A DNA stretch of 64,000 bases, from positions 88,374 to 152,373 of the forward strand of contig NZ_AOMB01000005.1 in assembly GCF_000336675.1 (NCBI RefSeq), given 5' to 3'. Origin of the DNA: Halococcus hamelinensis 100A6. GTDB lineage: Archaea > Halobacteriota > Halobacteria > Halobacteriales > Halococcaceae. The notes beneath the pieces are model-generated. The model saw only the letters and a program-made list of their open reading frames with translations, searched no databases and was not told the origin of the DNA. Position numbers and translations under genes: made by a program. Below, piece after piece: positions 17,465 through 42,001 of the stretch; the stretch's first letter is position 1; each line of letters starts with the position of its first letter.

Positions 17465-17833
17465 ATCGGCTCCCGGTCGACCGCCGTGCGGTGCGGTTGC
17501 TGTGGGGTGGCGCGCGCTCGCGGTCGTGCGTGAGCGATAGCGAACGCCGACCGCGGATCGGCGTGTGAGGGATGAGCACCGCAGGGAGTGAGTGAAACGA
17601 ACGAGCGAGGAGCACAGTCGGCTGGGGAGGCGTGTGGCCGGTGCTGGGCGGTTTGCGGTTCTCATTTGCACCAGCATCAGCGCGGTCCTGAAACGAGCGA
17701 AGACGTGGCCTCGGTAGCGAACGATATCGTATCACCGTCAGCGCGGTCCAGAAACAACTGAGAGTGTATCACCGTTAGCGCGGTTCTAAAAACGAGCGAC
17801 GGCAACCGATGATTTGCCGGAACGGTGCGTTCG
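17465..17833. repeat. Gene-free gap with three degenerate direct repeats
   Basis: This gap holds no convincing gene. Three copies of a roughly 26-nt sequence are visible at about 17672-17697, 17731-17756 and 17767-17796, with shared core (A/T)CACCGT(C/T)AGCGCGGT and a trailing AAA. The first copy is the most diverged. Unit spacing is about 59 and 36 nt. Between 17500 and 17620 are palindrome-like GAGCGA/TCGCTC words resembling those of the large repeat elsewhere in the window. The array ends next to the 3' end of the ThDP enzyme gene. Confidence 0.55.
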
Positions 17834-28038: not shown

Positions 28039-28428
28039 ATGCCTACCGTAGAATACGTCAACTACGAAGTGGTCGACGACCAGGGCTGGAACGTTGAAGA
28101 CGACGACCTCTTCGAGAAGGCCGCGGACGCCGGACTCGACGAGGAGGATTACGGCGAGATCGACGTCAACGAGTCCGAGTACATCCTCGAAGCCGCAGAA
28201 GCACAGGGCTACGACTGGCCCTTCTCGTGCCGGGCGGGCGCGTGTGCGAACTGCGCGTCGATCCTCAAAGAGGGCGAGATCGACATGGACATGCAGCAGA
28301 TCCTCTCGGACGAGGAAGTCGAGGACCGCAACGTCCGCCTGACCTGCATCGGGTCGCCGGCGGCCGACGAGGTCAAGATCGTCTACAACGCGAAACACCT
28401 CGACTACCTCCAGAACCGCGTCATATAG
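28039..28428 (+). CDS. fer: Haloarchaeal plant-type [2Fe-2S] ferredoxin
   Basis: Main soluble electron carrier of haloarchaea, used by 2-oxoacid ferredoxin oxidoreductases. The 129-residue protein has cluster ligands CRAGACANC (three Cys) plus LTCIG (fourth). The hyperacidic N-terminal insertion ([20 protein letters not shown]) is specific to halophile ferredoxins and aids solubility in salt. ATG 28039 gives the family length. The TAG stop at 28426-28428 is followed 3 nt later by the first copy of the structured repeat. Confidence 0.95.
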
Positions 28429-28430
28429 AG

Positions 28431-28717
28431 GCCCACTTTTTTGCAGGGGGTTGAGGGCCGCGAAGCGGCCCGATTCCCCCGTCCAAAAACCTGTCTTGCT
28501 GAGCAATGCGAAGCAAGGCTCGGAAGACGCTGTGCGTCTTCCGGCGGACTAAAAACTGCCGCTCGCTTGGCCTAACGGCCTCGCTCGCGGTACAATCACT
28601 ACCAATTCCGCACAGCACCGCCGAAGCCCTCAGTCGCTCGTTTCACTCGCTCCTTCGCCCTTCATCCACCAGGAGAGCACGGCTCTCCCGAGCCTCGGCT
28701 CACATTCGTTCGCCGAG
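28431..28717 (+). repeat. Structured 3'-end repeat element, copy A
   Basis: Fills most of the gap between ferredoxin and the convergent AKR gene. It starts GCCCACTTTTTT right after the ferredoxin stop. In order: a GGGGG/CCCCC stem enclosing GGGCCGC-gaa-GCGGCCC (28455-28471), the CTTGCT/AGCAAG stem, the 10-bp stem CGGAAGACGC-tgt-GCGTCTTCCG, GGACTAAAAACTGCCGCTC, a GGCC/GGCC stem, GCGGTACAATCACTA (28587-28601), GCCCTTCATCCACCAGG (28657-28673), a GGAGAGC/GCTCTCC stem and CTCGGC/GCCGAG. No ORF is supported. It aligns along its length with copy C and, except for one missing module, with copy B. Confidence 0.85.
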
Positions 28718-28763
28718 AAGCTGGGCACCACACCGGCCGAAGACGGCCATCGGAATCCGAAGG

Positions 28764-29816
28764 TCAGTCGCCAGCGTACTTCGCGCCGACGGCGTCGAGA
28801 TCGGCTCCATCGACCGACGACCGGAAGCCGTGCATTCCGTCGTCGCGGGTGATGCCGTAGCCGTCCTCGTGGAGTTCGGCGACGCGCTCGAACTCCTCGT
28901 CCGAGAGTCGGGGGGTCTCCGGCGCGGCGGCCCACTCGTCGATGTCGGCGGCGGTGCGGAAGGTCGGCGTCACCGAGGCGACCGCGTCGTGGGCGAGGAG
29001 CCACTGGATCGTGGCCTGGCCCATCGTGCGCTGGCCATCGCGTTCGAGGAATCGGAGCTGCTCCACCTTCTCCCAGCCGGTGTCGTACCACTCGTCGGGC
29101 CGGAAGCCCCGGTGGTCGCCGGCGTCGAGTTCGGTCTCGGGGGTGACCTGCTCGTTGAGGATCCCCGAGGAGTGGGGCACGCGCGGGACCAGGCTGGTCT
29201 CGGCGTCGAGGTCCTCGATGGTCTCGATGAAGTGCTTGCCCGGCACCTGCTCGAAGAGGTTGAACACCACCTGGACGGCGTCGAACTCGTTCTCGATCGC
29301 GGCGTCGCCCTCCGCGAGCCAGCCGATCGAGGGGCCGAGCGCCCAGCCGAGCGCCTCGACCTTGCCCTCCTCCTTGAGTTCGTCGAGGGCTTCGAGAATA
29401 TCACTGTTCACCTCGTCGACGTTCGCGTTGTGGAGCTGGAGGAGTTCGACGTGGTCGGTGCCCAACCTATCGAGGCTCTCCTCGACCGCCTCGTGGATGT
29501 ACTCGGGCGTGATGACCTTCGGGAGTTCGCCGTGGCCGGCCTGTGGGTTGTTGTAGAAGTCGTAGCCGACCTTGGTGGCGATGGCGACCTCGTCGCGGCG
29601 GTCGGCGAACGCCTGGCCGACGAGCTCCTCGCTCCGGCCGTGGCCGTAGACGTCGCCGGTGTCGAAGAAGGTGATCCCCCGGTCGGCGGCGTGACGGAGC
29701 ATCTCGATGCTCTCGCGCTCGCTCCGGTCGCCCCACCAGTCGGTGCCGACGGTCCACGCGCCGAAACCGACCTCGCTGACCTCGACGTCCGAGCCCCCGA
29801 GTTTCCGGTGTCGCAT
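28764..29816 (-). CDS. Aldo/keto reductase (larger type)
   Basis: A 350-residue AKR of the YajO/Tas-like branch. The tetrad is visible: [12 protein letters not shown] (Asp, Tyr), IATKVGYD (Lys) and [11 protein letters not shown] (His). The late cofactor segment is degenerate ([20 protein letters not shown]). Starts at ATG 29816 (MRHRKLGG). It stands alone, divergent from hemL and convergent with ferredoxin across repeat copy A. Substrate unknown. Confidence 0.88.
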
Positions 29817-31302: not shown

Positions 31303-31477
31303 GCCGCCGTGCGGCGGCGGTGCGGTCGCGGTTTGCGGTGCGGTTGCGGTGCTGTGTCTCGGCGAGCGGAGCGAGGTTCTCCCTCCGGTCGAACCTCGGA
31401 TGTGAACGGTGAACGGAGTGAACCGTGAGCGGTAGCGAGCCGAGACTGTGGTGGCGGGGGCGGTGCGGTCCTGGCGT
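31303..31477. repeat. Extra palindromic tail beyond repeat copy B
   Basis: Rest of the gap after hemL. Read on the minus strand, the end module of copy B is followed by a second CTCGGC...GCCGAG stem. This one encloses nested arms (CGGTTCACTCCGTTCACCG and GAGGTTC-GAACCTC-type words) and ends at about 31358. Immediately after hemL is GAGCCGCCGTGCGGCGGC, a GC-rich hairpin that could terminate hemL. No gene is seen. Confidence 0.5.
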
Positions 31478-31726
31478 CTCGGCGAACGAATGTGAGCCGA
31501 GGCTCAGGGGAGCGGTGCTCCCCTGGTGGATGAAGGGCGAGGCGGGAGTGCGAGTGAAACGAGTACCGCGAGCGGAGCGAGCGCGCCGAGGGCTTCGGCG
31601 GTTGCGGGGATGGTTAGTGGTTGTACCGCGAGCGAGGCGAAGCCGAGTGAGCGGCCCTTTTTAGTCCAGGTTTTTGCGAGGAGTGGTTCGCCGGAGGCGA
31701 ACCCGACGAAGTAAAAAAGTGGGTTC
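31478..31726 (-). repeat. Structured 3'-end repeat element, copy B
   Basis: Reverse-strand copy starting 3 nt after the amt-PII stop with GAACCCACTTTTTT (31713-31726). It keeps the first hairpin in a new sequence (GGTTCGCC-tcc-GGCGAACC), then AAAACCTG, then jumps to GGACTAAAAA, so the module with the CTTGCT and CGGAAGACGC stems is missing. It retains GCGGTACAACCACTAA (31614-31629), GCCCTTCATCCACCAGG (31522-31538), a 9-bp CAGGGGAGC/GCTCCCCTG stem and CTCGGC/GCCGAG. Confidence 0.85.
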
Positions 31727-33448
31727 TTAGACCGCGTCTGGCCCGTGCGTGCCGGTCCGGATCTGGGCGGCGTCCTCGACGGGCGTGACGAACACCTTGC
31801 CGTCGCCGGGTTCACCGGTCGAAGCCCGCTCGACGATGGCGTCGACCACGTCCTCGGCGGGGATCTCGGCGACCACACACTCGATCTTGACCTTCTGGTG
31901 GAGGTCCACGGTGTACTCCTCGCCGCGCCACTGGCCCTTCGTGACCGGCTGGCTGCCCCGGCCGGAGACGTTCGTCACCGTGAGCGAGGGCGCGCCGGCT
32001 TCCGAGAGCGCGCTCTTGACTGCGTTGAGCTTCTCCGGGCGGACGACGGCGGTGATCATCTTGAGCTCCCCGTCGTTGGGTTCGCCTCCGTCGGTCCGGA
32101 TCGTCTCGTCGTCGATCGAGCGGACCATCCCACCGTCGGCGACGGGACCGCCCGAGTCGCCGAAGCCGAACTCGGGGTAGGTGTCGACGCCGTGTTCGGA
32201 GCTATCGAGTCCGTTGCGTTCGTGTTCGGGGGTGACGCGTGCCTGGCCGGCCGCCTTGAACGCGTAGAAGACCGCCGCGGTCGCGAGGATCGTCCAGCCG
32301 CCGATGACGGTGACGCCGACGACCTGGACGATGAGCTGCGTGACGGAGAAACCGCCCACCGCGAAGAACGGGAAGAGAACCGCGCCCATCGCGCCGGCCG
32401 AGCCGTGGACCGGGTAGACCGCACAGACGTCGTCGATCTTGAGGCGTTTTTCGACGAACGAGAAGACGATCGGGAGCTGACCGCCCGCGAGCAGCCCGAG
32501 GACCATCGCGCCCCACCACGTCACGGCGTCCGTGACGCTGGTGATGACCACGAGGCCCGCGAGCATCCCGTTGGCGACGAAGAGGGTGTCGACCTTCTCG
32601 CTCTTGAGCAACGAGACGCCGGCGGCACCGAGCGCGCCGGTCCCCATCGCGAGCGTGGTCGTGAGCGCGACCCGACCGACGGTGCTCGCGAACGCGCCGA
32701 GCGCGAGCGTGTCGTTCTCGGCGGTGAACACCGTCGCCGCCGTGCCGACGTTGAAGCCGTACCAGCCGAAACAGAGGATGAGGGTGCCGAGCACCGCGAA
32801 CGTCATCGAGTGACCGGGGATCACGTTCGCGCTGCCGTCGTCGTTGTAGCGGTCGATCCGGGGACCGATGACCCACGCCGCGGTGAGACCGGCGACCCCA
32901 CCCATGCCGTGGACGATCATGCCGCCCGCGAAGTCGTGGAAACCGACGCCCATGAAGTCGGCGAGGAAGCCGCCGCCCCAGGTGACGCCCGTCACGACGG
33001 GGTAGATGACCGCAGCGAGCAGGAAGGTGTAGGTGACGTAGGCCCGGAGCTTACACCGCCCCGCGACCGCACCCGAGACGATCGTGGCGGCGGTCATCGC
33101 GAACACCGCGCTGAACAGCCAGCCGACCCACGCGGTGGGGTCCGCGGGCGCGATGACGCTACCGAACGCCCCGCCGATATCGACCCCGCCGCCGCCCGTC
33201 AGCCCGGCCACGACCGTCGAGACCGCCGCGCCGACGAGGAAGAAGGCCACGACGCCGATCGACCACGTCAGCATGTTCTTCGTGAGCTGGTTGGCGACGT
33301 TCTTCGCCCTGACCTGACCGGCCTCCAACATCGCGAAGCCCGCGTGCATGAAGAAGATCAGGAAGGTCACCGTCAACACCCAGACGTTGTTCACCCCGTC
33401 GGCGAGCACCCCGACGTCGAGCCCGGACTGGAGCAGCACGTCGGTCAT
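31727..33448 (-). CDS. amtB: Ammonium transporter fused to a PII (GlnK) domain
   Basis: A 573-residue fusion. Residues 1 to about 415 form an Amt/Rh channel of about 11 segments with both pore histidines visible ([14 protein letters not shown] and [10 protein letters not shown]). An acidic linker follows, then a complete PII domain from residue 463 to 573: [13 protein letters not shown]-loop [20 protein letters not shown] with the uridylylation-site tyrosine position (Tyr512), B-loop [11 protein letters not shown] and C-loop IRTG. In most prokaryotes GlnK is a separate protein that plugs the channel under nitrogen sufficiency. No other nitrogen gene is adjacent. Confidence 0.95.
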
Positions 33449-40148: not shown

Positions 40149-40742
40149 ATGGACGAAAAAACCGAGGAGCTCCGAGACATCTTCATGGACGTCACCGACG
40201 CGTCGAGCGTCACCGAGCGCCAGGAGGACGAGCGGGGGGCGATCGCACCCGAGGGCTCGCCAGACGAGCGTACCGCCGACGTGATCGCGGCGATGGACGA
40301 GCGCTACGAGTTCACGACCGACCTCGACCGCGAGCGGCTCGTCGCCATCGTCCGCGGGTTCTACGAGGACGACGCCGACGCCGAACTCGCCGACGCGGTC
40401 GACGAGTCGCGCCACACCGTCTTCCAGGCCCGAATGGACCTCCACCTCTTTCGGAACGACGACGTCGAGGCCCCGTTCGACCTCGATACCCTCCGCGAGC
40501 GGCTCGAGGACGGGACCGAGGTCGCGGCGGTCGCCGAGGAGTTCGACGTCGACGAGCCGACGGTCCGGCGCTACGGCCGGGTGCTCGAAACCTGGGCCGA
40601 GCGCCGCGCGGTCGGCGACCGTTTCCGGGAGGTCTTCGACGAGATCTACCTCGATGCCGACCTCGAAGACCACACGACCGAGGCCACCCGCGACGGCCTC
40701 GACGAGGCCACCGAGGGGATGGAGAACAACCTCTCGTTCTAA
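40149..40742 (+). CDS. cmi4: Conditioned medium-induced protein 4 homologue
   Basis: A 197-residue acidic soluble protein resembling the haloarchaeal protein named for induction by conditioned medium. It contains a central helical bundle (DRERLVAIVRGFYEDD) and an HTH-like stretch EVAAVAEEFDVDEPTVRRYGRVLETW, so DNA binding is possible. Starts at ATG 40149; a GTG two codons upstream is in frame. The TAA stop is followed 3 nt later by repeat copy C. Confidence 0.75.
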   Translation: MDEKTEELRDIFMDVTDASSVTERQEDERGAIAPEGSPDERTADVIAAMDERYEFTTDLDRERLVAIVRGFYEDDADAELADAVDESRHTVFQARMDLHLFRNDDVEAPFDLDTLRERLEDGTEVAAVAEEFDVDEPTVRRYGRVLETWAERRAVGDRFREVFDEIYLDADLEDHTTEATRDGLDEATEGMENNLSF

Positions 40743-41038
40743 GATCCCACTTTTTGGGGCGGGGGTTGAGCGCGAGCGAAGCGAGCGCGATTCCCCCGCC
40801 CCAAAACCTGTCTTGCTAAGCATCGCGAAGCAAGGCTCGGAAGACGCTTCGCGTCTTCCGGCGGACTAAAAACTGCCGCTCGTTCGCCTGACGGCTCACT
40901 CGCGGTACAACCACTAATCAACCCCGCACAGCACCGCGACCGCTGAAGCCCTCGACTGCTCGCTCCGCTCGCAGTCTCGCCCTTCATCCACCAGGAGACG
41001 AGTTCTCCTGAGCCTCGGCTCGCTATCGCTCGCCGAGA
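40743..41038 (+). repeat. Structured 3'-end repeat element, copy C
   Basis: Starts GATCCCACTTTTT directly after the cmi4 stop and fills the gap to the convergent rps8e. It shows a CGGGGG/CCCCCG outer stem, CTTGCT/AGCAAG, CGGAAGACGC-ttc-GCGTCTTCCG, GGACTAAAAACTGCCGCTC, a GCC/GGC stem, GCGGTACAACCACTAA (40902-40917), GACTGC/GCAGTC, GCCCTTCATCCACCAGG (40980-40996), CAGGAGA/TCTCCTG and CTCGGC/GCCGAG. It matches copy A almost end to end; differences concentrate in hairpin arms and loops. Confidence 0.85.
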
Positions 41039-41094
41039 CGCTCCGTAACCGCACAGCGGCCGCACCGCCACGGCCGCGAGCCGCAAGAATCGAG

Positions 41095-41466
41095 TTACTC
41101 TTCGAGGACGGCGTTGACCTGCCCGTCCTGGCCGGGGCGGGAGGTCACGCGCGCGGTGCCCTCGCCGGTCTCGACGAGCGCGCCCTTCGTGACGATGTTC
41201 CGTCGGACGTAGTTCGGGTTCGCGGGGTTCTCGACCACGTTCTCGATGGTCGTGCTTCGGGTCTCGCCGTCGACGGCGACGGTGGCGCGGTCGGTCGCGA
41301 TCGCCCGGACCTTCGTGGTGTTGCCGCGCGAGGTGACGGTCTTGAGCTTCGGCTCGCCGACGCGGGTCTCGGTGCCCTCGCTGCCGAGCTGGTGTTTGCG
41401 TTTGCCGCGCGTCGGTCGTCGTCGCCCGCCCGTTCGCTTCTTCGTCGAGCGTCCCTGGTCTTTCAT
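41095..41466 (-). CDS. rps8e: 30S ribosomal protein S8e
   Basis: Archaeal/eukaryal small-subunit ribosomal protein, 123 residues. The basic N-terminus (MKDQGRSTKKRTGGRRRP) and TRVGEPKLKTVTSRGNTTKVRA match S8e, and PANPNYVRRNIVTKGA is the conserved second half. ATG 41466 is chosen over an in-frame upstream start at 41475. Single gene, convergent with cmi4 across repeat copy C. Confidence 0.95.
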   Translation of the reverse strand: MKDQGRSTKKRTGGRRRPTRGKRKHQLGSEGTETRVGEPKLKTVTSRGNTTKVRAIATDRATVAVDGETRSTTIENVVENPANPNYVRRNIVTKGALVETGEGTARVTSRPGQDGQVNAVLEE

Positions 41467-41551
41467 ACCTCCCACACGACGAGCGCGCTATTTGAATCGC
41501 TCGATGCGGGTCTATCGGAGCCTTTAGGCCGCTCGACCGTGGCCCTCCCGT

Positions 41552-42001
41552 GTGAGTCTCCGGAGCGCCGTCGCCGCACCGTTTCTGGGTCGTGGCGAGA
41601 TGGAACTCGCCGAGAGCGAGTTCGTGGTAGCGCTCTCGCTCGACCGGGACTGGTTCTCGCCCGACCAGGCCAAACGCCTCGCGGACGTCGCGGTCGGCGA
41701 GGGCCTCCTCGAACGCACCGACGCCGGCCTCGAACCCGGCTTCGACCCGGACGAGGTGACGATCCCCGACGGGTTCGTCCCGAGCGAGGACCTCCTCCGA
41801 CAGCGCTCGACGTTCGAGCGCGTGCTCGACAGCGTGGTGGCCGACGGCACCGAGAAACGCACCGCGGTCGCCGAGATAAACCGGCTCCAGGGCTCGCTCG
41901 GGCTCACCATCGAGGCCGCCGCGGTGGTCTACGCCCGCCGCCGAGGGGTCGACGTCGGCGAGGTGGCCGAACACGCGCTCTCCGAACTCCACGAAGGCTG
42001 A
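41552..42001 (+). CDS. DUF2240 family protein
   Basis: A 149-residue soluble protein from GTG 41552. The layout is an N-terminal helical winged-helix-like part (DWFSPDQAKRLADVAVGEGLLE), a middle linker and a C-terminal helix pair (AEINRLQGSLGLTIEAAAVVYARRRGV), as in archaeal DUF2240 proteins. Function unknown. It converges with the HAD hydrolase. Confidence 0.75.
   Translation: MSLRSAVAAPFLGRGEMELAESEFVVALSLDRDWFSPDQAKRLADVAVGEGLLERTDAGLEPGFDPDEVTIPDGFVPSEDLLRQRSTFERVLDSVVADGTEKRTAVAEINRLQGSLGLTIEAAAVVYARRRGVDVGEVAEHALSELHEG

Follow-up and report, generated by a model that had tools for sequence, protein, structure and literature searches.

The bacterial REP, BIME and REPIN repeats have a tetranucleotide beside the foot of an imperfect palindrome; they are extragenic, often lie just 3' of genes, occur in high copy number and are linked to RAYT (Y1) transposases. 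Single-strand elements of the IS200/IS605 type have a target word on their left and the same word at their right end. Tn7, which goes in behind glmS, and the tRNA-targeting integrative elements are known to insert safely at gene 3' ends. In haloarchaea, the palindrome-associated transposable elements (PATEs) of Haloquadratum walsbyi comprise several families, and the small mobile repeats (SMR) of Haloquadratum carry prominent terminal inverted repeats (PMC3119063). In Haloferax volcanii intergenic transcript 3' ends are found at T stretches, and inserting T5C led to 95% termination in vivo (PMC7237163).

The window analysed here, a stretch of 64,000 nucleotides from Halococcus hamelinensis 100A6, carries three copies of an element of which no description was found in the literature covered, which excludes most subscription journals. 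On balance we regard it as an undescribed non-autonomous interspersed repeat of the Halobacteria, targeted to the word CTAR, with an anatomy like that of IS200/IS605 or REP elements and with a probable role as a two-way terminator; we hold this reading with moderate confidence. With REP, BIME and REPIN it shares the tetranucleotide adjoining a palindrome, the extragenic position and the high copy number, but it has two or three hairpins where they have one, an archaeal host, and CTAR in place of GTAG. Tn7 and the tRNA-targeting elements read a specific gene sequence, whereas the genes beside this element are unrelated and have only a 4-base word in common. SMR are likewise about 110 bp long, numerous and non-coding, but have terminal inverted repeats, which are absent from the two ends of the element's core. 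The Haloferax volcanii terminators (PMC7237163) share the T stretch shortly behind the gene; they are bare T stretches or single hairpins, whereas here homologous copies are dispersed and have T-runs on either strand.

The features of the window are as follows, R1 and R2 being covariance models of two forms of the core, A2 and A1 respectively.

28426 to 28428, plus strand: TAG stop codon of the ferredoxin gene (NCBIfam Frdxn_Halo), 3 nt upstream of copy 1, by sequence reading and NCBIfam
28432 to 28601, plus strand: core of copy 1, composed of CCCACTTTTTT, a variable hairpin GGGGG..CCCCC, AAAAACCTG, a nested insert, GGACTAAAAA (28546-28555), a second stem and GCGGTACAATCACTA (28587-28601); R2 match at 28546-28601
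28494 to 28545, plus strand: nested double-hairpin insert in the core of copy 1, CTTGC..GCAAG and GGAAGACGC..GCGTCTTCC, absent from copy 2 and from most copies
28602 to 28735, plus strand: Halococcus-specific 3' modules of copy 1, a ACCGCACCGC-like linker, GCCGAAGCCCTC..hairpin, CCTTCATCCACCAGG (28659-28673) and a GAGCCTCGGC..GCCGAG hairpin; the right edge is blurred
31727 to 31729, minus strand: TAA stop codon of the Amt-PII fusion gene, 3 nt upstream of copy 2, by sequence reading
31615 to 31723, minus strand: core of copy 2, complete and uninterrupted, the best R2 match of the window (110 bits)
31478 to 31614, minus strand: 3' modules of copy 2, with CCTTCATCCACCAGG at 31522-31536, by sequence comparison
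40740 to 40742, plus strand: TAA stop codon of the gene at 40149-40742, which is without NCBIfam match, 3 nt upstream of copy 3
40746 to 40916, plus strand: core of copy 3 with nested double-hairpin insert, ending in GCGGTACAACCACTA (40902-40916), by R2 match and sequence reading
40917 to 41038, plus strand: 3' modules of copy 3, with CCTTCATCCACCAGG at 40981-40995, by sequence comparison
17518 to 17616, minus strand: alternative 3' module alone, without core, GCCACACGCCTCCCCAGCCGACTG..GGTGCTCATCCCTC..CGACCGCGAGCGCGCGCC, a weak R1 match (E=0.019) compared by eye

The genes 5' of copies 1, 2 and 3 encode a halobacterial ferredoxin, the Amt-PII fusion and a protein without NCBIfam match, and the convergent partners are, in the same order, an oxidoreductase, hemL and ribosomal protein eS8. 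The earlier note had described three copies of one element with conserved boxes, without ORF and without terminal inverted repeats, and all of this was borne out: the same boxes follow in identical order in all three copies, GCGGTACAAYCACTA and CCTTCATCCACCAGG each occur exactly three times in the window where 0.04-0.10 occurrences are expected, and none of the copies has an ORF of its own. The word CCCACTTTTT does stand 3 nt behind the stop codon in all three, reading in the direction of the preceding gene, with the correction that copy 1 starts at 28432 and not at 28431. What has to be given up is the element as one unit of three copies, as the copies are mosaics of a class-wide core and genus-specific 3' modules, with a nested hairpin insert in copies 1 and 3, and the genome holds about 90 of them. 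Read antisense, the CTTCATCCACCAGG box gives rise to spurious ORFs with a WWMKGE motif (window positions 28630-29091, 31425-31664 and 40739-41992), and ORFs of this type may be annotated as haloarchaeal hypothetical proteins.

The class-wide conserved unit is a hairpin core of 105-135 bp, running from CCCAC to CACTA; the longer element of the window is this core plus the Halococcus-specific 3' modules. Copies read side by side have a modular build, in which the core is joined by one or the other of two 3' modules and by nested hairpin inserts. The first stem of the core is CCAC(C/T)TTTTGC...GCAAAANGTGG and contains runs of T4-T6 on each strand; the last stem, CCGCTCG...CGAGCGG, closes in TACAAYCACTA. 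Two forms exist, A1 with ..AAAAACCTGGACTAAAAA and A2 with CCCACCTTTTGCTGC..CTGGCAAAATGTGGATCAAAAGC, the latter having a second, variable hairpin, and the core thus consists of two or three hairpins in a row. No conservation is seen in the 2-3 nt that separate CTAR from the stem. Among the genomes analysed the 3' modules are found in Halococcus only, and the alternative 3' module is apparently a separate repeat family that received core insertions. Repeats of 26-30 bp lie on both sides of the core in L265, L268 and L286 (L numbers are our locus handles). Two opposite orientations are seen for the variable hairpin in the first stem, GGGGGTTGAG..GATTCCCCC versus GGGGGAATC..CTCAACCCCC (L230 and L232 versus L276, L309 and L244), as if its loop had been inverted between its own arms.

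The predicted pairing is accompanied by compensatory changes. In a structure-free MAFFT alignment of the host copies of the A2 core, double changes are present in 12 of 32 predicted pairs. In an alignment of 46 distinct copies, mostly from other genera, which was fitted to the model and leans towards the structure, 96.5% of cells are paired and 23 of the 32 pairs show double changes; none of 500 shuffles of this alignment reached as high a value, and sliding the partners destroys the signal. The covariation shows that the palindromes are maintained, be it as RNA, as DNA or via template-directed palindrome correction, and is no proof of an RNA function on its own. If the element gave rise to a trans-acting or ligand-binding RNA, such strong compensatory changes would be accounted for, but a DNA-level function or palindrome correction leaves the same pattern, the roughly 90 copies lie at unrelated genes, Rfam 15 has no match in the window at gathering score, and the T-run at the 5' end would shorten the transcript; we consider such an RNA highly improbable.

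The core has no terminal inverted repeats, the CCCAC of the left end pairing within the first stem and the CACTA of the right end having no complement at the left end. As the two ends carry no inverted repeats and no short duplication was seen at the junctions by eye, a MITE or an IS end family was rejected. It is less easy to draw the border towards the PATEs. Like them, the element is non-coding, lacks terminal inverted repeats, has palindromes near its termini, which here covary, and occurs in many diverged copies with nested small repeats. It could therefore be a PATE, that is a palindromic derivative of IS200/IS605, too short to code and moved by a Y1 transposase, and so belong to an already described haloarchaeal category; the short target word CTAR on the left, which recurs at the opposite end of the element, agrees with this. 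PATEs are, however, reported as several families of Haloquadratum, whereas the core is one family conserved across most genera of Halobacteria, with a strong placement at TAA and TAG stops, and we regard this assignment as rather unlikely. The element resembles an IS200/IS605 derivative in its anatomy, and membership is not claimed.

The covariance-model search that the earlier note had asked for was run, and the family is far larger than three and class-wide. The host genome, whose ferredoxin has its nearest relatives in Halococcus, is a 3.42 Mb draft of 46 contigs, analysed on stretches around matches; DNA and pattern searches together give about 90 merged places, a few of them possibly due to chance. 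With more candidates scored, R1 finds 79 matches in the host and 6 to 24 in other single genomes; the 46 host matches of R2 partly overlap with those of R1. Each of ten Halococcus genomes has at least 42 matches. R1 matched 232 of 292 Halobacteria genomes and 68 of 77 genera, with E-values outside Halococcus as low as 6e-23, and R2, run within the class, matched 126 of 145 genomes. In a phylum-wide draw with R1 all 31 positive genomes belonged to the order of the host, and about 200 genomes of other classes gave no R1 match. Model E-values are rough, per-genome counts are lower bounds, and the copies from other genera discussed below are best-scoring matches, not a random sample. Some copies in the draft assemblies contain N-joins; the single N joins within duplicated element parts in L256, L275, L286, L306 and L311 are probably assembly artefacts at repeats. 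A viral origin was rejected, since there is no match among 50,697 phage records, and 19 pattern matches in IMG/VR are mostly AT-rich and do not contain the element. Nine matches in haloarchaeal plasmids show no special enrichment, and a plasmid link was likewise dropped.

Gene positions are approximate; they come from a simple caller that uses codon usage and was trained on the window. Fifty host copies have a 5' neighbour in sense orientation; 36 start -1 to 9 nt from the end of that gene, 17 of these at 3 nt and 11 at 2 nt, and the rest lie farther away; stop +3, put forward as an exact anchor, is thus the commonest spacing and not a rule. Among 89 copies of other genera, 44 of the 65 with a sense 5' gene lie within -3 to +5 nt of it. 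The earlier note had named a lack of preference for position or orientation as what would tell against it; the preference found is strong and class-wide. The filling of convergent gaps holds for the three window copies and not in general, as 76 classified host copies divide into 29 convergent, 34 tandem and 13 divergent positions. Several copies start 0-3 nt after the 3' end of a tRNA. With a divergent 5' neighbour, 14 of 22 host copies begin 34-45 nt upstream of that gene's start codon, with a mode of 39; in other genera 5 of 18 fall in this range, at 37, 39, 39, 39 and 44 nt. Haloarchaeal transcripts are largely leaderless and have their core promoter (BRE/TATA) at roughly -38 to -25, and a peak at about 39 nt would hence correspond to the outer edge of the promoter. 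In L324, L334 and L344, from three genera that belong to one family, the core lies antisense between an apparent trpE and trpG, with its left end 2-4 nt from the trpG coding start, apparently a conserved old insertion in an operon. In L411, L413 and L415, which concern one gene, the insertion has altered the last codons, and the frame now stops in, or exactly at, the right end of the antisense element (TAGTGATTG..).

The stops adjoining the element are not a random choice of stops. TAA or TAG is found in 35 of 36 host cases and 40 of 44 in other genera (75 of 80 together), compared with 83 of 195 and 64 of 128 in the remaining genes of the same loci, which is about half (Fisher 8e-11 and 7e-7, respectively). 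C precedes the adjoining stop in 26 of 36 host cases and 31 of 44 in other genera, about 70%, against 78 of 195 and 50 of 128, about 40%, in control genes. CTAR occurs within 8 bp before the left end of 22 of 60 host copies, compared with 0.2% of random 8-mers, and 24 of the 60 have CTAA at the right end. A reader of stop codons or a mere 3' spacing rule is disfavoured, because neither would choose among stops or depend on the preceding base, as a CTAR target does. These biases, with the tRNA ends, the divergent promoters and the CTAA at the element's own right end, speak against the anchoring to stop codons as such that had been suggested, and point to a CTAR target as the better explanation of stop adjacency; CTAR is rare outside TAA and TAG stops in these GC-rich genomes, which would place most copies directly behind a gene.

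CTAR accounts for only few of the promoter-adjacent copies, though their spacing is equally sharp. The insertion machinery might sense the edges of transcription units, which would be the positions behind stops and behind the 3' ends of tRNAs and, some 39 nt ahead of leaderless genes, the upstream border of the core promoter; the element would then build insulated gene borders that are also breakpoints for shuffling. We think this quite unlikely.

The history of the copies combines retention with exchange. In other Halococcus genomes, 23 of 36 5' neighbours of copies have an ortholog beside a host copy, 21 of them on the same side and strand, while chance would give about 4% if, by estimate, some 150 of 3,500 genes border copies. 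From one genus to another the neighbours are mostly different. The ferredoxin end carries a copy in the host, H. thailandensis, two Halomarina species and one Halobacteriales MAG, and a degraded one in H. morrhuae (80 genomes inspected); at two other genes, congeners with the element occur alongside congeners without it, which points to gain and loss at orthologous genes. At several loci the 5' gene corresponds to one host copy and the 3' gene to another (L208 matches L263 and L246; L226 matches L235 and L280), as if recombination through the element had swapped the partner genes. Among the loci compared there was no clean pair of empty and filled site with an exact junction. That copies have long stayed at the same ends and sides of genes, the ferredoxin end among them, that neighbours were exchanged at the element and that both strands have T-runs would all suit a 3'-end terminator or insulator cassette owned by the host, under selection, spread only by recombination and gene conversion, and with its spacing explained by function. 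Yet a functional spacer predicts neither TAA and TAG over TGA nor a C before the stop, copies lie inside other repeats and 39 nt upstream of divergent genes, and the majority of neighbours change from genus to genus, which makes such a cassette unlikely.

Direct repeats of 13-113 bp flank 14 of the 89 copies from other genera, 12 of them of at least 28 bp, while 75 copies are without and 0 of 267 mismatched flank pairs have such repeats. What is repeated is in most cases the end of the adjacent gene or of a tRNA. A reading of these repeats as target-site duplications of 24-112 bp was withdrawn, since a further element, or the remnant of one, follows the duplicate in L375, L376, L453, L459 and L400, which makes tandem duplication at least as good an explanation and suggests it for these five loci; at the remaining loci, tandem and target duplication are both possible. 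L375 and L459 contain arrays of several cores with partial copies of the neighbouring gene's 3' end in between. That hairpin slippage, duplicating a gene's 3' end with its element, should be the way of multiplication, without any insertion, draws on these flanking repeats and second elements. It covers local copies only and not the dispersal to about 90 unrelated genes, none of the 44 sense-stop copies has such repeats, and L374, L351, L355, L348 and L347 have no second element and could be insertions with long target duplication; as a general account slippage is very doubtful.

For the CTAR-targeted repeat, the mechanism would be as follows. The element would insert a few bases 3' of CTAR, hence mostly behind genes, and would be transposed by an enzyme supplied in trans. 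Neither a transposase nor an autonomous relative came up; the 38 neighbour genes adjoining by their stop were scanned against Pfam, and the 25 families listed for them include no transposase. The idea that these neighbours are themselves transposon genes was abandoned, all 38 looking like ordinary genes in the families listed. Once in place the element could act as a two-way transcription terminator shielding convergent or tandem neighbours, because the T4-T6 runs on both strands of the first stem lie right behind the stop; judged from the sequence, these runs probably terminate transcription. Of a 3'-UTR RNA module, a terminator-targeting mobile repeat and a spreading insulator, the three possibilities raised at the outset, a mobile repeat at gene ends fits best, and a terminator or insulator role is plausible from the T-runs.

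If borne out, the element would be a haloarchaeal counterpart of REP and BIME, conserved, structured and of high copy number, which sits between genes and can set transcript ends. It appears to act as a rearrangement breakpoint, and may explain why haloarchaeal annotations contain some odd short hypothetical proteins and some exchanged gene neighbours. Its presence in most of the genera searched makes termination, target choice and transposition directly testable.
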